Shown piece after piece: positions 6,846 to 18,491 of a stretch of DNA of 53,493 nucleotides (positions within the stretch are counted from its first letter, which is position 1; the number at the start of each line of letters is the position of its first letter). Location of the stretch: positions 1 through 53,493 of the forward strand of contig LSSG01000075.1 in the NCBI GenBank assembly GCA_001595915.1, read 5' to 3'. The translations under genes and the position numbers were made by a program. Origin of the DNA: Thermoplasmatales archaeon SG8-52-3 (GTDB lineage: Archaea; Thermoplasmatota; E2; DHVEG-1). Under the pieces are notes generated by a model. The model saw only the letters and a program-made list of their open reading frames with translations, made no database searches and was not told the DNA's origin.

Positions 6846-7412
6846 ATGTTATTTCAAAAAATTGAGGTGGGTAATATTAAATTAAAATTTTGTACTTTAA
6901 TATTTTATGTAATAATATTATCATTTATTTTTTCTTGTTTTTTATTTGAATATTGTAAAGCAAAAGAAAATTCCTATGACATTTCAATAATAGGTGAACC
7001 TACATATAAACTCTCAAACACCTTTGAAAAAAATGGAAGGATACTTGGTAAAACTTTTCAAATAGATATTAAAATGAGTAATACTGGAGCAATTAAATCT
7101 GATGAAATTGAAATAAACCTTACAGATCAAGAAGGATTTATGCTTTCTCAGAAAACATTTTTTGAAGCAGGACAAACTAAAACAGTTTCATTTAATTGGT
7201 CAACAATGAAGATTATTAATCAAGAATTAATTGTTTATTATTATCCATCAGATATTGGTACTCTATGGAATAAATATAACAGTGGTCAAAGAACTTTTAC
7301 AATAAAAGTTTCAGATAATAGTGTACCGTCAACAAGTACTCCAGGTTTTGAAATATTTCTATTATTTACTGCAATTATTTGTATAATTTTTATATTGAAT
7401 AAAAAGAATTAA
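6846..7412 (+). CDS. Membrane-anchored CARDB-like protein
   Basis: Signal peptide, IKMSNTGAIKSDEIEINLTD beta-domain, C-terminal TM. Confidence 0.6.
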   Translation: MLFQKIEVGNIKLKFCTLIFYVIILSFIFSCFLFEYCKAKENSYDISIIGEPTYKLSNTFEKNGRILGKTFQIDIKMSNTGAIKSDEIEINLTDQEGFMLSQKTFFEAGQTKTVSFNWSTMKIINQELIVYYYPSDIGTLWNKYNSGQRTFTIKVSDNSVPSTSTPGFEIFLLFTAIICIIFILNKKN

Positions 7413-8601: not shown

Positions 8602-9255
8602 ATGGGAAATAAAATACGTAGAATATTAAAGGAAAATAAAGGAAGCATTGGAATAGGCGCGATGATAGTCTTTATCGCAATGGTTCTTGTCGCTGGTATT
8701 GCTGCATCTGTTTTGATTCAAACTAGTACTACGCTTGAATCACGTGCATTAGCAACAGGGCGAGAAACCACTGTAGAGGTTTCAACTGGTGTACATGTTG
8801 TTGGAATATCTGGTAATAATAGTTCAGGTGTAATACAGCATCTAGCTATTATGATTAGAACTAGAGCAGGATCTGAAGAAATTGACCTGGCTCAAACCGT
8901 TATAGAAATATCAAATTCTTCAACGAAAAACTTCTTGACTTACGATGATTCCACTTGTATATTAGCAGATTGGATAAATGGTACAATATTTAATGATTCT
9001 AATTATCCAGCAGATGCAACGCACTTTACAGTAATAGTTTTAGAGGATGCTGATGGTTCGTGTAGTTCACCAAATAGTGCTGTAATCAATTCTGGGGATT
9101 ATGTAATACTTGGTGTAAATACACAACAGTGTTTCAATGGTCTGACTCCAAGACAAGACATCTGGGGATTAGTGATTCCAGAGGACGGTTCACCTGGTGT
9201 GATTCATTTTAGATGTCCATCATCGTTTACGGAGGATGTAATAGAATTACAATAA
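8602..9255 (+). CDS. flaB1: Archaellin 1
   Basis: Class III signal peptide [42 protein letters not shown]; archaellin C-terminal motif. Confidence 0.95.
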
Positions 9256-9270: not shown

Positions 9271-9936
9271 ATGAGAAATTTATTTAAAACTCTTAAGAGA
9301 AAGGATGTTGGATCTATTGGTATCGGTGCAATGATTGTGTTTATTGCTATGGTTCTTGTTGCTGGTATTGCTGCATCAGTTTTGATTCAAACAAGTACCA
9401 CTCTTGAATCTCAAGCAATGGCCACAGGTCGAGAAACAACTGACGAAGTTGCTGGAGGTATTGCAGTCTTTGATATTGAAGGACATGTCTCAACAGATAT
9501 CGATGCACTAGCAATAACTGTTCGTGCAAGAGCAGGTTCTCCTGATATTGATCTCAATGAGACAATTATTCTACTTACTGATGGAACTTCAAAGACCTTG
9601 TTGATGTATGATTTTGCAACTGCAACCCATTTCAATAGCACTGTTGATACAGGCGATGGAGACGTATTTGGATTTGATTATGGGACTTTGACAAATGAAC
9701 AATTCGGAATAATGGTTCTTGAAGATGCAGATTTATCAGTAAAAAGATATACTCCTGTAATTAACACCGGAGATAAAGTAATGTTATTTGTTAATGGTAT
9801 AGCTTGCTTTGGAGGAACTGGACTTACTGAAAGAAAAGACATTCAAGGATGGATCTATCCTGAACATGGATCTCCTGGAGTAATTGCATTTAGAACACCA
9901 GCATCGTATAGTGATATCGTATACGATCTACAATAA
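9271..9936 (+). CDS. flaB2: Archaellin 2
   Basis: [28 protein letters not shown] archaellin N-terminus. Confidence 0.95.
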   Translation: MRNLFKTLKRKDVGSIGIGAMIVFIAMVLVAGIAASVLIQTSTTLESQAMATGRETTDEVAGGIAVFDIEGHVSTDIDALAITVRARAGSPDIDLNETIILLTDGTSKTLLMYDFATATHFNSTVDTGDGDVFGFDYGTLTNEQFGIMVLEDADLSVKRYTPVINTGDKVMLFVNGIACFGGTGLTERKDIQGWIYPEHGSPGVIAFRTPASYSDIVYDLQ

Positions 9937-9951
9937 GGAGGATGATAAAAA

Positions 9952-10623
9952 ATGAGAAATTTATTTAAAACTCTTAAGAGAAAGGATGTTGGATCTATTG
10001 GTATCGGTGCAATGATTGTGTTTATTGCTATGGTTCTTGTTGCCGGTATTGCTGCATCAGTTTTGATTCAAACAAGTACGAGATTAGAGTCACAAGCAAT
10101 GTCAACAGGTCGTGAAACAACTGATGAGGTTTCTAGTGGTATTGCAATTTATGACATAGAAGGATATGCAGATACATCAGTTGATGGAGATCTATCAAAA
10201 TTAGCAATAATGGTAAGACCTAGAGCAGGAACACAAGGTATCGATCTTGAACAGACATATATAGAGTTAGCCGATGAAAATAAAAAGGTTATATTAAACT
10301 ATTCAACCACTTATTACGCTGAACCAGACGGACAAGCAGATATCTTTAGTGCTGCAGTATTTCCTGATACACCTGGTGGAACTCCTGCATCTCAGTATGG
10401 AATACTTGTAATTGAAGATGCAGATAACTCACTAGAACAAGCTACACCCGTAATAAATAGAGGAGACAAGGTATTTCTGTGTATTAATATAACTGGTACA
10501 CATGGTGATATAACTGAGAGAACAAAGGTTTGGGGTTATGTTGTCCCTGAATTGGGATCACCCGGAGTAATAACATTTAGGACTCCTGCCTCATACTCAG
10601 ATGACGTGTTTGATCTACAATAA
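9952..10623 (+). CDS. flaB3: Archaellin 3
   Basis: Archaellin N-terminus nearly identical to flaB2; archaellin C-terminus. Confidence 0.95.
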
Positions 10624-10643: not shown

Positions 10644-10671
10644 CGTGTGGTCATTTACCACACGTTTTTTT
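10644..10671 (+). terminator. Perfect stem-loop plus T-tract downstream of flaB3
   Basis: CGTGTGGT-cattt-ACCACACG followed by ttttttt. Confidence 0.75.
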
Positions 10672-10735
10672 AATTTTTTTTTTTAATATCATTTTTAAAA
10701 CCATAAATTTTTATTCTAATATTTGATACTTTTTT

Positions 10736-11449
10736 TTGGATGGGCTCTCTTTTTGGGTGCCTGGGACCCTAATTTACTGGGAGGTGAGCAGAGTTAAAAT
10801 TGCTTTAACTCTAAAGGTTATTCGTTTCGAAAAAAATGCTGCAATAGGAATAGGTTCATTGATAATTTTTATTGCAATGATTCTTGTCGCAGGTATCGCA
10901 GCATCTGTTTTTATTCAAACTATGAATAGCTTGGAACAGCAAGCATTACAATCAGGTCAAGAAGCAATAAAAGACGTATCAAATGGCTTGAGAGTAACGC
11001 AAGTTAGTGGATATAATAATGGTTCAACAATATCTCAAATTGCAATATTTTTAAGGACAACAGCTGGTTCTGATTATATTGATTTAACATATACATATAT
11101 TTCTTTATCAGACACTTCAAAAAATGTAATACTTGATTTAAATACAAGTATTTATAATAGCTCTGTATCTGGCGGTTTATTTGGTACATTGGATGATACT
11201 GCTCTTACTTCAACTACATATGGACTTATGGTAATTCGTGATGTTGATAATTCATGTTTATCTACAAGCCCTATTATTAATAGTGATGATTTAGTAGTTT
11301 TATTAGTAAATACTTCAACATGTTTTTCAGGATTAGATACTAGAACCGAAGTAACAGGAAATATTGTTCCGGAATATGGTATAAGTGGTGTAATTAGTTT
11401 TACAACTCCAAGTAGTTATATAAATACGATAATTGAATTACAAAAATAA
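10736..11449 (+). CDS. flaB4: Archaellin 4 (true start uncertain; ATT at 10799 fits best)
   Basis: [32 protein letters not shown]; the ORF-track start is a TTG at 10736. Confidence 0.9.
   Translation: MDGLSFWVPGTLIYWEVSRVKIALTLKVIRFEKNAAIGIGSLIIFIAMILVAGIAASVFIQTMNSLEQQALQSGQEAIKDVSNGLRVTQVSGYNNGSTISQIAIFLRTTAGSDYIDLTYTYISLSDTSKNVILDLNTSIYNSSVSGGLFGTLDDTALTSTTYGLMVIRDVDNSCLSTSPIINSDDLVVLLVNTSTCFSGLDTRTEVTGNIVPEYGISGVISFTTPSSYINTIIELQK
10744..10789 (+). promoter_or_regulatory. Potentially structured 5' leader of fourth archaellin
   Basis: GC-rich island in AT-rich DNA; GCTC (10744-10747)/GAGC (10786-10789) enclosing GGGT (10755-10758)/ACCC (10766-10769); SD GGAGGTGA 10780-10787. Confidence 0.4.
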
Positions 11450-12626: not shown

Positions 12627-14414
12627 TCAAGTTGAAAGCATTCCTCCAAATCCTACATCAACAATAAAACTTGTTATTGCTACAATCCAAACAAATGGAA
12701 CAAAATAAAGCAAAGTAACATAAATGTGACTACCTCTCAAGACTCGCAATGTTAAACCCATCATAAAGCAATGAATAACTAGAACAATGAAAATAATTAT
12801 GAAATTTTGATTATAAAGCGCTGGATCAATGAAATTTAATAATGCAGGAATATTAATTCTCTCGACATTTTCAAAGGGATTGCCGGTTTCCATCATTATA
12901 GTATTCAAATGTCTGCCAATAATAAGTGATACATAAATTGCAAAGGCAATACCAAATGTAATACCTGCAAATAATGCAATTGATGTATTTACAATGGTGA
13001 GTTTTTTTACTCGAAGATCTCTAATTTTTCTCATATTTTCCGATATCATTCGAGAAACAATACGCGGATTAGCAGCAGCATATGTAGCCTCGCGAAACAT
13101 TTCACTTGACCTTTGAACATAATTACTACCTGTATCAACACCAAACCAATCCCATGCAGCATTATCATCAATTCTTGTTCTTAATCTTCTGTATAAATTT
13201 CTAATATGTCTAGTTAAAACTCCATAATCTTTTTCGCTTAGATAGTAAACAGATTCATTTATTTTTCCTCCTCTCATTGCTGAAATTGAACCAAGAGCAG
13301 GTAAAAAACTGAGGAAGTTTTTTTCCTTTCTAGAGATTTCTGTTTCTGCTGTAAAAACCTTAATTCCAGTAATTAACAAAGGAGTTATAGATAATGCAAT
13401 AATTATTTCAAATGAAAGAATATCAAAAAAAGGAAGTGAAAGAAAATATTTTCCAAAAAATAATACCGCTCCTATTAATATTACTAAAACTACTGAGGTT
13501 CTAAATATACTAGTTATTTTTTCTTCTAGTTCTCCTTTTTCACCTGTTACATGCCATATTTCATCCTGTGGAATCATTGCCTTTAAAAGATACATCAATA
13601 AACCTTCAGAAACAATAAGTAAGAAAGATGATAGATAAATGAACATGTTCATGTCTTCAGTACCAATTATTATAGGTAGAACAATACCTAAGGACATAAC
13701 AAAAATTATGGCAATTAACATTGCAACATAAACTTCATTTAAAATAATGACATTTTCATTGCTAGACTCATACATTGTTTTATACTCTTGAATTACTGCT
13801 TCCTGTTCGGTTTCGATAAATTCTCTATGTTCAACACCACTGTCAAGGCTCTGGGAAAATCTGTCTAAGAAATCCTTAAGTATTTTACTTGGTGTTCTTT
13901 CTGATATAAAGCGAAATGTTTTAGATAACGGCATTCGCCATTGAGTTGATAATACACCAATTTTTTTTAGTTCAAAACCCAATGCACCATATGCCTTTTT
14001 CCCGCCTAGAATATTTATTATATCTCTTAGTGATAAATCAGAAATTGCCAAAACCCTCAAATGTGTTATAAAAAAATGCATCTTTGCATTAATATCATTT
14101 TCTTTATTCTTCCATGTAATATAAGGGTAAAAAACACCAAGAATTATTGGAACTATTCCACCTACAATAAAAGATATGGGATTAAGATTCAAAGGAAATG
14201 GAACAATTATCATTAAAATAAAAGGCATTATGAAAACAATTATTCCCATTACTATTAATGGGAGAAGAATTGTAGTATAGAACTTCTTTGGATTTTCAAG
14301 ACCACGATAAGCAATTTTTAATTCTTTTATAAAGTCCTTTTTATTTTCAATGTCTGAATCTTTTTTTTCCTTTTTCCTTTTTTTTGTTTTCTTTTTATCT
14401 GTCATTTTTTTCAC
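12627..14414 (-). CDS. flaJ: Archaellum assembly membrane protein FlaJ/ArlJ
   Basis: T2SF/TadC-type polytopic membrane protein, 4-nt overlap with upstream FlaI. Confidence 0.92.
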   Translation of the reverse strand: MKKMTDKKKTKKRKKEKKDSDIENKKDFIKELKIAYRGLENPKKFYTTILLPLIVMGIIVFIMPFILMIIVPFPLNLNPISFIVGGIVPIILGVFYPYITWKNKENDINAKMHFFITHLRVLAISDLSLRDIINILGGKKAYGALGFELKKIGVLSTQWRMPLSKTFRFISERTPSKILKDFLDRFSQSLDSGVEHREFIETEQEAVIQEYKTMYESSNENVIILNEVYVAMLIAIIFVMSLGIVLPIIIGTEDMNMFIYLSSFLLIVSEGLLMYLLKAMIPQDEIWHVTGEKGELEEKITSIFRTSVVLVILIGAVLFFGKYFLSLPFFDILSFEIIIALSITPLLITGIKVFTAETEISRKEKNFLSFLPALGSISAMRGGKINESVYYLSEKDYGVLTRHIRNLYRRLRTRIDDNAAWDWFGVDTGSNYVQRSSEMFREATYAAANPRIVSRMISENMRKIRDLRVKKLTIVNTSIALFAGITFGIAFAIYVSLIIGRHLNTIMMETGNPFENVERINIPALLNFIDPALYNQNFIIIFIVLVIHCFMMGLTLRVLRGSHIYVTLLYFVPFVWIVAITSFIVDVGFGGMLST

Positions 14415-16069
14415 TTAAGATTTATTGGAAGTCCTTTATCGCCCTCTCTATAATAACTCCATATAAATTGAGTTACCTCATAATAATCCATAATATCTTC
14501 TTCTACCATTTTATCAAGAATCATTTTTCTTTTGTTATACTCAACATAGATTTCAGTCGGATCTGCATATCCTGCATTTTTTGCAATTTTCTCTTCAAGA
14601 ACAAAGCTATTTCTATTGGCTCTAAAACGGTGAATATCTTCAACAGGATCCCATTCGAATGCATTTCTTGACATTATCCCATCGACTTCTCTATTGTAAC
14701 CCTCAATTTCATCAATTGAGGTACATCTCCTTATTAATTTACCATTACGATCAATTGCTAGTTGAATTATTACAAAATCCAGGTTATCCATGAACGTTTT
14801 TGGTACATTTATAGGATCACCTGTAAATCTCTGAATAACCTTTGTTACTGTTCCGGCATGAAATGTAGTCATACAGGGATGACCCGTTTGCATAGCCTGA
14901 AATACAATGCTACCTTCTGCACCCCTTACCTCTCCTGGAATGATATAATCTGGTCTTGATCTTAATGCTGCCTTTAAAAGATCAAATAAATCAACTCTTC
15001 CCTCCTCAGGTCCTGTTGTCTTAGTAAGAAGTTGTTGCCATACTGTATGAGGAACCTGCATTTCAGGGGTTGATTCAGCGGTATATATCTTTTTTTCTGG
15101 TGGAATAAAAGGTATTATTGCATTCATTGTCGTTGTTTTTCCACATGCAGTTCCACCACAGATAAAAAAACTTCGTCCATACTGCAGACAAAGCCAAAGA
15201 TATGCCCCAATATTAGAACTAAGAGTTTTCCATTTTATAAGCTGAGTGATACTTATAGGAGATTCTGTAAACCTTCTTATTGTCATACTTGGTCCCTTAA
15301 TACTAATTGCATTGCTATAGATGATGTTACCTCTACTTCCATCTGGTAAAACACCATCAACAATAGGTTGTCCTTCACTTACGGGAGTGCCCATTTTTTC
15401 ACTTAATTTTCTTGCAAAAACAGGACCATCATCTTTACTGATTTCAACATTTGTTTTAATCATTCCAAATACTTTATGTATAAGATGGATTTTATGTCCA
15501 GTAATCATATGAATATCTTCTAAATAAGGATCTCTCATAAAACATTCAAGAGGTCCCCCACCAACAATATTTTTTATTAAAAAATATTCAATATTACTTT
15601 TCTGTAAAGAAGTTGCTTTTATCTTATCACGTTTAGTAGATTTGTTAAATTTGCTTTTTTTTGAAGTAACTGCTTTTATTGCTTTATCATCAACTTGTAT
15701 AATTTCATCTATCATTTCTTTAAGTACATCTTTTAGTTCTTCATCTGAGATAACACTCTTTTTTTTAGGAGCAAATTTAATAATTAATTTTTGAAGTTCA
15801 TCATGTTTTATTTGTTCATTATTATCAAGGGTAGGTTCAATCGTATGATATTCAAGTTCATCCATATCTCTTGTTTTAAAAACATGATAAAAAATTGAAC
15901 CCTTTCCAGGATAAATCAAATTAGGATATTTTTCTTCTCTAACTTCATATGGTAAAGTTGAGTAAAATACAGGTTCTTTCATTTTTCTCTTAATATTATC
16001 TATATATTTTTTTAAATGTGGATTTGTTTGAAGCATTTGTTCTTTTGCTTTATCATTCATATCTGTCAT
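14411..16069 (-). CDS. Second FlaI-type secretion ATPase (divergent paralogue)
   Basis: GspE/FlaI fold; variant Walker A GGTACGKTTT; DYIIPGEVRGAEG; tandem to canonical FlaI. Confidence 0.93.
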   Translation of the reverse strand: MTDMNDKAKEQMLQTNPHLKKYIDNIKRKMKEPVFYSTLPYEVREEKYPNLIYPGKGSIFYHVFKTRDMDELEYHTIEPTLDNNEQIKHDELQKLIIKFAPKKKSVISDEELKDVLKEMIDEIIQVDDKAIKAVTSKKSKFNKSTKRDKIKATSLQKSNIEYFLIKNIVGGGPLECFMRDPYLEDIHMITGHKIHLIHKVFGMIKTNVEISKDDGPVFARKLSEKMGTPVSEGQPIVDGVLPDGSRGNIIYSNAISIKGPSMTIRRFTESPISITQLIKWKTLSSNIGAYLWLCLQYGRSFFICGGTACGKTTTMNAIIPFIPPEKKIYTAESTPEMQVPHTVWQQLLTKTTGPEEGRVDLFDLLKAALRSRPDYIIPGEVRGAEGSIVFQAMQTGHPCMTTFHAGTVTKVIQRFTGDPINVPKTFMDNLDFVIIQLAIDRNGKLIRRCTSIDEIEGYNREVDGIMSRNAFEWDPVEDIHRFRANRNSFVLEEKIAKNAGYADPTEIYVEYNKRKMILDKMVEEDIMDYYEVTQFIWSYYREGDKGLPINLK

Positions 16070-16136
16070 TTTATCTTTTTTTTTTATTACATATATTATT
16101 GTGAGTGCACCCTTAAATTAAATTTATTTATGTATT

Positions 16137-17777
16137 TTAAATTGTTATTGGTAATGATTGGACCCCTTCTCTATAGAATGTCCAAATGAATTGAACGACT
16201 TCATAATAATCAAATATTTTTTCTTCTACCATCCTCTCCAATATATGCTTCCTAAGATCATACTCATCATATATTTGCATAGGATCTTCATATCCTGCCA
16301 TAGGAGCAATACGTTGTTCTAAAATGTAGCTGTTTCTATTTGCTTTGAACATATGAGCATCATCCACAGCATTCCATTCAAATGCCTTTCTTGACATAAT
16401 GCCATCTACTTCTTTGTTATATCCTTCTATTTCATCAACTGATAGAACTCGTCTTATTCTTTTTCCTTTACGTTCAACAGCCATCTGTATCAAAACAACG
16501 TCTAAATTGTCCATGAATGTTTTTGGAATATTTATTGGATGGCCAGTAAATCGCTGAATTACTTTTGTTACAGAACCTGCATGAAATGTTGTCACAACTG
16601 GATGACCTGTCTGCATAGCTTGAAATACAACTCGACCTTCAGCCCCTCTAGTTTCTCCTGGAATAATATAGTCAGGTCGGGACCTTAGACCTGCTCTTAA
16701 AAGATCTCCTTCATCAATATGTCCTTCTTTTGGACCTGTTGATCTGGTAAGTAATTGTTGCCATACAGCATGAGGAACTTTTACTTCAGGTGTATTTTCA
16801 ACAGAATAAATTTTTTTATCAGGTGGAATAAAAGGAAACATTGCATTAGACGTTGTGGTTTTTCCAGATGCGGTTTCACCACAAACAAATATACTGCGTC
16901 CATATTGTAGACAAAGCCAAAGATAAGCTCCAACTCCTGAATCAAATGTACCCCAATTTATTAATTGTGTAATGCTAATTGGCGTTTCACTAAATTTTCT
17001 AACTGTCATACTTGGTCCTTTAAGACTGACATCTTTACTATGAATTATATTAACCCTACTTCCATCAGGGAGAGTACCATCTGCAATTGGTTGTCCTTCA
17101 CTAACTGGACTTCCGATTTTTTCTGCAAATTCTTGTGAAAATCTATTTGCCCAAGATTCATCAATGAAAATGTTTGTCTTAACCATATCAAAGACTTTAT
17201 GGATGAGATGAACATTTTGACCTGTGATAATATGAATATCTTCGATATATGGATCTCTCATAAAAGGTTCAAGAGGTCCACCGCCAACAATATCTTTTAT
17301 TATATGATATTCTATTGTCATCTTCTCAAATGTTGTAACTTTAATTTTTCCACCTTTAGATTTACTTAATTTTCCACCAGACTTTTCATCTATTGTAGTA
17401 ATTTTCTGAAGATATTCTCTTATAGCTTTTCTCAAATCATCTTGAGATTTAATATCTGTTTTAAGATGAGCTTTCTCATATATCAATTCAATAACTTGTT
17501 CAAGTTTTTCATTTGTTTTATCATCTAAAATTGGTGTTATTGCAAAATATTCTTTATCTTCCATATCCTTTGTTTTAAAAATATGAATAAAAACTACACC
17601 TTTTGTAGCATATATTATGTTAGGATATTCTTCCTCCTTAACATCCCTTGGAACTTTGCTATAAAAGGTAGGTTTTCCCATCTTTTTTTCAATTTCTGAA
17701 ACATACTTCTTAAGATGGGGATAATCCCTTAGCAATTTATCCACTTCAGGTTTTTCTATTTCTGTCATTTCTCCCAC
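16137..17777 (-). CDS. flaI: Archaellum motor ATPase FlaI/ArlI
   Basis: Walker A GETASGKTTT, DYIIPGETRGAEG, TTFHAGSVTKVIQR. Confidence 0.95.
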   Translation of the reverse strand: MGEMTEIEKPEVDKLLRDYPHLKKYVSEIEKKMGKPTFYSKVPRDVKEEEYPNIIYATKGVVFIHIFKTKDMEDKEYFAITPILDDKTNEKLEQVIELIYEKAHLKTDIKSQDDLRKAIREYLQKITTIDEKSGGKLSKSKGGKIKVTTFEKMTIEYHIIKDIVGGGPLEPFMRDPYIEDIHIITGQNVHLIHKVFDMVKTNIFIDESWANRFSQEFAEKIGSPVSEGQPIADGTLPDGSRVNIIHSKDVSLKGPSMTVRKFSETPISITQLINWGTFDSGVGAYLWLCLQYGRSIFVCGETASGKTTTSNAMFPFIPPDKKIYSVENTPEVKVPHAVWQQLLTRSTGPKEGHIDEGDLLRAGLRSRPDYIIPGETRGAEGRVVFQAMQTGHPVVTTFHAGSVTKVIQRFTGHPINIPKTFMDNLDVVLIQMAVERKGKRIRRVLSVDEIEGYNKEVDGIMSRKAFEWNAVDDAHMFKANRNSYILEQRIAPMAGYEDPMQIYDEYDLRKHILERMVEEKIFDYYEVVQFIWTFYREGVQSLPITI

Positions 17778-17780
17778 TTT

Positions 17781-18491
17781 TTAGAAAGCAACTCCACTTG
17801 TTTCAATAGTTAATCCAACACCAGGTCTGACAGAAAATGTGGTCAATGGTTCATATTTATGTCTAGCTCCATTAAACTTTTCAAGATAAATATTATGGAC
17901 AATTCCAACTCCTGGCATTGATTCGCGAGTAATTTTATAATGAATATCACAAATCATCTGAAATGCGCTATGAATTCTACTTGACCATTCATTAGGGTTT
18001 CCAGTAACCCATATCATTTTACCAGAGCCTTTTAATCTATTAAAAAAATTAGTTAAATCTACTAAATTATCTTCATTTAAACTTTCATTCAGAAGTGTTG
18101 ATAGAGAGTCAATGAAGATTATATCAGGATCAAAAAGTTTTTTACAGGTAGTTAATCCTTCCATAAATGTACTTTTTGGTTTTGTTTCAGCTAACATTAC
18201 TTCAGTTGATATAAAAAATAATTTCCCTCTGATTAGATAATTTCTCATATCATAACCAACTGAAGCAACTTGTCTTAAAAAACTCTTAATTGTATATTGT
18301 GTTGAAACATATGAACAAGTTGAACCATTCTTGAGTAAGCTATAACAAAATCTCTGACAAAAAATACTTTTTCCAGTACCCTCCTTTCCCTCTATAAAAA
18401 TTAATGTTCCATCAGGAATTTCTTTACCAAATCTTTGTGCAAAGCCATCCTTTTCTCCTTTTCTTTCTAAAATTATTGATTTACTTGTCAT
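17781..18491 (-). CDS. flaH: Archaellum accessory ATPase FlaH/ArlH
   Basis: RecA-like, Walker A GKEGTGKS, DIIFIDSLSTLL Walker B; directly upstream of flaI. Confidence 0.93.
   Translation of the reverse strand: MTSKSIILERKGEKDGFAQRFGKEIPDGTLIFIEGKEGTGKSIFCQRFCYSLLKNGSTCSYVSTQYTIKSFLRQVASVGYDMRNYLIRGKLFFISTEVMLAETKPKSTFMEGLTTCKKLFDPDIIFIDSLSTLLNESLNEDNLVDLTNFFNRLKGSGKMIWVTGNPNEWSSRIHSAFQMICDIHYKITRESMPGVGIVHNIYLEKFNGARHKYEPLTTFSVRPGVGLTIETSGVAF

Follow-up and report, generated by a model that had tools for sequence, protein, structure and literature searches.

A fourth archaellin gene of uncultured Thermoplasmata predicted to start at a conserved non-canonical codon

AUU is an established start codon of infC. 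For pcnB, such a start is cited in PMC13009471. In S. aureus, cvfC1 and ccpN start at AUU and AUA, respectively, behind extended Shine-Dalgarno (SD) sequences and give about 10% of the AUG yield in poor medium (PMC13009471). For Archaea, a review names AUG, GUG and UUG as start codons in all mRNA types (PMC7531240), and aIF1 is reported to destabilise or reject non-AUG complexes (PMC6237735). Among 61,358 starts of related prokaryote genomes that were ancestrally AUG, a single switch to AUU was counted (PMC5622118). Measured against these three reports, a non-AUG start that spans an order, drifts in its third base and has companions in other genes is unusual. For one archaeal gene, the Asgard tubulin AtubA, an ATT start was inferred from N-terminal homology together with a ribosome site at a plausible distance (PMC13394414).

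Here we analyse flaB4, an archaellin gene of a Thermoplasmatales archaeon. Like infC, pcnB and the two S. aureus genes, it combines a putative near-cognate start with a strong, extended SD, and this arrangement is conserved between relatives. Unlike them, it encodes an archaeal structural surface protein, its candidate codon drifts between AUU, AUC and AUA from genus to genus, several other genes of the lineage appear alike, and discrimination would be exerted by aIF1. AtubA resembles flaB4 as an archaeal gene with an inferred ATT start, but it is a single gene, whereas the state of flaB4 spans many genera and in-frame stops bar upstream starts. Minor archaellins such as M. voltae FlaA and the hook archaellin FlaB3 share with flaB4 the PF01917 domain and a position beside major archaellin genes, and FlaA has its own transcript, as we propose for flaB4; in contrast to flaB4, no non-AUG start is described for them in the relevant part of PMC4187195. 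With AUU starts already known from infC and pcnB, flaB4 offers no new mechanism; what is new is the depth and breadth of the state.

The flaB4 locus and its leader

The window, that is, the whole 53,493-nucleotide stretch analysed, is contig 75 of a 1.9-Mb genome (G000) with a completeness of 79%. Its nearest named relative is 'Thermoplasmatales archaeon bin50' (CP070712.1; G001, the sister chromosome), and the host group is probably placed close to Marine Benthic Group D / Thermoprofundales. All genomes compared are metagenome-assembled and partly masked, and the genus labels used below (g7, g12, g26) denote anonymous groups. Three archaellin genes, flaB1 to flaB3 (8602-9255, 9271-9936 and 9952-10623), start with ATG, each behind a GGAGG-type SD. 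Directly 3' of them lies flaB4 (10799..11449, forward strand), whose product matches PF01917 with 99.1 bits (cut-off 29.5; E 4.4e-28) and thus belongs to the archaellin (ArlB/FlaB) family. FlaI/J/H-like ORFs at 12627-18491 were identified by eye, without a profile.

Several elements separate flaB4 from its neighbours. A stem search against shuffled sequences revealed an intrinsic-terminator-like hairpin between flaB3 and flaB4 (10644..10672, forward strand), with an 8-bp stem (CGTGTGG-TCATTTA-CCACACG) followed by TTTTTTT; two terminator-type sites, which are both strands of this one site, were found versus 0.2 expected. It is followed by a conserved promoter-like box, CCATAAATTTTTATTC (10701..10716, forward strand), whose TATA/BRE position is predicted and whose core CCATAnnTTTTTAT(T/G)C is found 5' of most flaB4 orthologues. 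From this box, transcription would start near 10733-10740. Downstream follows a conserved 5' leader element restricted to flaB4, GGATGGGCTCTC...GGGTGCCT...ACCC (10738..10769, forward strand). In six genomes of three genera, conservation at the nucleotide level extends over TTGGATGGGCTCTC...GGGTGCCT...ACCC...GGAGGTGAG..GAGTTAAA..TTTAACTC, and four of five relatives have a disrupted archaellin frame across this leader. On the sister chromosome, the promoter box has a single occurrence, as has the leader element, both at flaB4; the remaining matches to GGATGGGCTCTC in the family genomes are unrelated. An Rfam scan of the window gave no match at the gathering threshold, which argues against a known riboswitch or 5'-leader RNA. 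These features show flaB4 to possess a predicted promoter and leader of its own, bounded by the terminator-like hairpin, and it is probably transcribed separately.

The leader also holds a short putative upstream ORF of 10 codons (MGSLFGCLGP; 10740..10772, forward strand, stop TAA at 10770-10772). Its ATG is the sole ATG nearby, is out of the flaB4 frame and lies close to the predicted transcript start; since in about eight genera this ATG is found only 23-28 nt 3' of the promoter box, the upstream ORF may be near-leaderless. In L012, L013, L014, L019 and L023, its stop is a TGA inside the flaB4 SD. Frameshifting between the upstream ORF and flaB4 was ruled out: the ORF of the window ends well 5' of the SD, and the shifted frame runs into TGA in L010 and L023. 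In the g12 loci L044, L046 and L020, the flaB4 frame runs uninterrupted from close to the promoter across a degenerated SD to an ATG. Unlike these, L042 and L043 have a reading frame from near the promoter that stops at the SD.

A conserved start region lacking canonical codons

The SD of flaB4, GGAGGTGA (10780..10787, forward strand), matches in 8/8 positions and is invariant in the six closest relatives. As the original prediction had stated, neither an ATG nor a well-placed GTG or TTG lies near it: GTG 10784 sits within the SD, TTG 10736 has no SD, and 3' of the SD the flaB4 frame of the window contains no ATG, GTG or TTG until well into the mature protein. The in-frame ATT (10799..10801, forward strand), the most likely start codon, begins exactly 11 nt after the SD. 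Reading from this codon yields, as predicted before, a leader of 14 residues, the same length as that of flaB1: the class III leader IALTLKVIRFEKNA (10799..10840), with predicted cleavage before AIGIGS in a conserved context. The putative cleavage site, EKNA|AIGIGSLIIFIAM, lies before the hydrophobic stretch, as expected of a class III leader.

Searches of relatives, the family and the order yielded 31 flaB4 orthologues, whose products form a clade apart from 41 other archaellins; 10 of 11 near-complete genomes in the family and order searches carry the gene. Twenty-two of the 31 orthologues, counted without the copy L047 and without the genera g12 and g26, all of which have ATG, lack ATG, GTG and TTG at every codon 0-14 nt after the SD (22/22). 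The other archaellins of the same genomes and order almost all start with ATG, 4-8 nt after the SD 8-mer. In the sister chromosome (L010), the SD reads on as GGAGGTGA GG TGA GTT AAA ATT, with the same bases in the record CP070712.1; because this TGA is in frame, neither the GTG nor the TTG upstream of it can serve as the start. In-frame stops likewise bar every upstream start in L016/L035/L040, L022, L023 and L027, where no canonical codon occurs from the in-frame stop down to the cleavage site. No canonical start thus appears usable for flaB4, which the reading frames show for these relatives. The mature protein evolves under strong purifying selection (G000 versus G001: dN 0.067, dS 0.77, dN/dS about 0.09).

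Because the state is shared, upstream starts are closed by stops and the protein is under purifying selection, we take flaB4 to be a maintained gene with a non-canonical start, neither an error nor a young loss. Judged from these sequences, it has lacked a normal start codon over a very long period in this uncultured sediment group. A sequencing error or recent mutation was ruled out by independent assemblies (G001/CP070712.1, G002, G021, G047), and the earlier suggestion of a recent start-loss mutation is refuted, as many genera under purifying selection have the state in common. At the codon aligned with 10799, where an ATG in sister genomes would have pointed to an error, the sisters have ATT, ATT, ATC and ATC.

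Two atypical copies were observed. In L014 (G005:C21), a major-type archaellin body is preceded by a second set of promoter, leader and N-terminus of flaB4; this fusion, in which an ATG has arisen two nt behind the SD, is apparently a gene conversion. G002 carries a second FlaB4 (C7:61771-62409, L035) nearly identical to that of genus g7, which could reflect horizontal transfer or assembly contamination.

Candidate start codons and rival readings

A non-AUG start of flaB4 is strongly supported by these comparisons. Of the individual codons, AUU 10799 is the best candidate; we regard it as rather probable, not as proven. Fourteen of the 22 orthologues have ATT, ATC or ATA (ATH) at a distance of 9-11 nt from the SD (background 8.4%), and in genus g12 the SD-like sequence is followed by ATG at exactly 11 nt. 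In L013, the aligned codon is AAT. As ATG at 11 nt is rare in G001 (5 cases versus 47 at 5 nt, the mode), AUU 10799 would be weak twice over. The codon also opens the 5-nt loop of a hairpin, AGAGTTAAA-ATTGC-TTTAACTCT (10790..10812, forward strand; -7.9 kcal/mol, z -3.1), with a perfect 9-bp stem that is kept in L009-L013 and partly in L039, with little covariation. The codons TTA ACT in its 3' arm are identical in 6/6 genomes of three genera, whereas of the 97 columns in which the residue is invariant only 16 also keep one codon throughout. The fold of the whole leader is no better than that of shuffles (z -0.9), and covariation is almost nil, too scarce to prove a fold; the hairpin at the AUU is therefore the sole structural feature we retain.

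That AUU is the exact codon was the less secure part of the original prediction, which had missed the better-spaced GTT (10793..10795, forward strand). This codon is in frame, 5 nt after the SD, a spacing that is optimal, the commonest among ATG genes and also found in the P. abyssi aEF1A mRNA GGAGGUGAUUUAAAUG (PMC6237735); if it were the start (GUN in relatives), AUU would encode leader residue 3. GTT, GTA or GTC (GTH) is found at 3-5 nt in 12 of 22 orthologues (background 4.1%; ATH there: 3/22), slightly above ATH at 9-11 nt when genera are counted, and in L039 both changes ahead of ATC, GTT to GTA and AAA to AAG, are synonymous, as if these codons were translated. Yet GUU has two mismatches to AUG, while the other proposed near-cognate starts of the lineage have one, as AUU does. 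In addition, L045, L041, L048 and L027 carry AUH instead of GUN near the optimum, and genus g12 has AGT near that place ahead of its ATG, with AGAGTT between SD and start persisting despite a different frame, as if untranslated. We consider initiation at GUU unlikely, if still a serious contender. Improbable, in our view, is a start even further downstream, in which the hairpin, looping out 21 nt, would bring the SD beside the codon 8 residues before the cleavage site. That position holds ATG in L010 and L012, at a looped-out spacing of 8 nt, and TTG in L011; the 8-residue leader would fall within the 6-12 residues given as typical of archaellins (PMC4187195), and the hairpin is kept in L009-L013 and partly in L039. 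However, most other orthologues have neither the hairpin nor a leader ATG, the codon is GGA in L039 and ACA in L013, and in the window the candidates are GTT 10817 or ATT 10820, so that with GTT at this codon the looped-out start would still be non-canonical.

A canonical upstream start, at GTG 10784 within the SD or at TTG 10736 on a leaderless mRNA, would agree with the predicted transcript start, and both frames are open in the window. Against it, the TGA of L010 follows both codons, TTG is also closed by in-frame stops in L011, L013 and L039 (with L010, four of the five closest sisters), the loci listed above offer no usable canonical codon, and GTG 10784 has no SD before it. For the sisters this possibility is already refuted as far as reading frames can tell, and for the gene as a whole it is very improbable; the leaderless TTG, named beforehand as the case that could overturn an AUU start, is not upheld. 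We find it hardly credible that flaB4 is a decaying gene or an untranslated, silent cassette. It does lack a canonical start, and archaellin cassettes do recombine, as the chimeric copy in G005 illustrates, but the low dN/dS, the conserved promoter and SD and the presence of the gene in nearly all near-complete genomes of the family and order searches speak against decay.

As a whole, we think it fairly probable that flaB4 is a functional, separately transcribed archaellin gene with an SD-directed near-cognate start, likely AUU 10799, and a low yield. The full-length SD would direct initiation at the near-cognate codon, which would be read by the ordinary initiator Met-tRNA. With weak P-site pairing, initiation would reach only a fraction of the level at flaB1-3, which start with ATG, and we propose that FlaB4 is for this reason made in small amounts, as would fit a minor filament subunit or a base (hook-like) subunit. 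Most likely, then, the weak but conserved start keeps FlaB4 scarce, with a putative role in dosage; low yield and minor-subunit status are what we infer from the start region. The original suggestion that the start throttles a minor archaellin is thus still plausible.

Near-cognate starts in other genes of the lineage

We scanned G001 for strong-SD genes in which no canonical start lies between the upstream stop and a point 24 nt 3' of the SD, and obtained a short list, mostly of codons one base from AUG. At 3-7 nt after the SD, ATT, ATC, ATA, ACG or CTG was present in 13 of 29 cases versus 2.9 expected (p 1.5e-6), and in 400 kb scanned of G003 in 6 of 11 versus 1.1 expected (p 3e-4), where both p values treat codons as independent and use one background frequency. 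Few sites were obtained with control motifs, which therefore bound the near-cognate rate only loosely. The clearest case is iscU: the window's genus has GAGGTGATAAA ATT CC in each of its three species (G000, G001, G002; loci L157, L158 and L160, with L158 at G000:C19:10296 in the window's own genome), whereas G003 and G005 show ATG in this position, with the same protein downstream. For a TadC-like gene, ATT in G001 and G002 stands opposite ATG in relatives; here a GTG inside the SD is in frame as well. In one gene of G003, GGAGGTGA AAAT ATT aligns with an ATG of G001 in an ORF-versus-ORF alignment, a weak test because local alignments end before non-AUG starts.

Relatives thus seem to start several other genes, including iscU, at similarly weak codons, and AUU initiation in this lineage is credible on this comparative basis. 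The original statement that AUU starts are rare needs a caveat, since near-cognate starts appear in several other genes here. Tentatively, and with some doubt, we suggest relaxed start selection in this Marine Benthic Group D-like family of Thermoplasmata. A strong SD with AUU, AUC, AUA, ACG or CUG would then be a regular minority start of conserved genes (iscU, the TadC-like pilus protein, secreted proteins), and flaB4 would be the deepest-conserved case, kept weak by selection and equipped with a structured leader and a near-leaderless upstream ORF. A non-AUG start of aIF1 itself was not found; aIF1 starts with ATG here. ARAGORN found only some tRNAs on the sister chromosome, which holds stretches of N.

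These mRNAs, flaB4 and iscU among them, would be natural substrates for probing what spacing, aIF1 and a strong SD each contribute to the fidelity of archaeal start selection. Gene callers restricted to ATG, GTG and TTG truncate or miss such genes; for flaB4 they would assign the archaellin a wrong leader, and in some relatives no leader whatsoever.

Further candidates were noted in passing. For an ORF beside the archaellum cluster (listed at 6846-7412), the true start may be ATT 6876-6878, 5 nt after TGAGGTGG; its homologue in G001 (462713) likewise has ATT in this position and lacks a canonical start. Secreted-protein genes of G001 (among loci L053-L144) carry ACG in start position behind GGAGGTGTTTTT or a similar SD, for example at 252115, 830105 and 1012849 of the reverse strand and at 588075. 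Further genes of G001 have ATC, ATA or CTG in start position.
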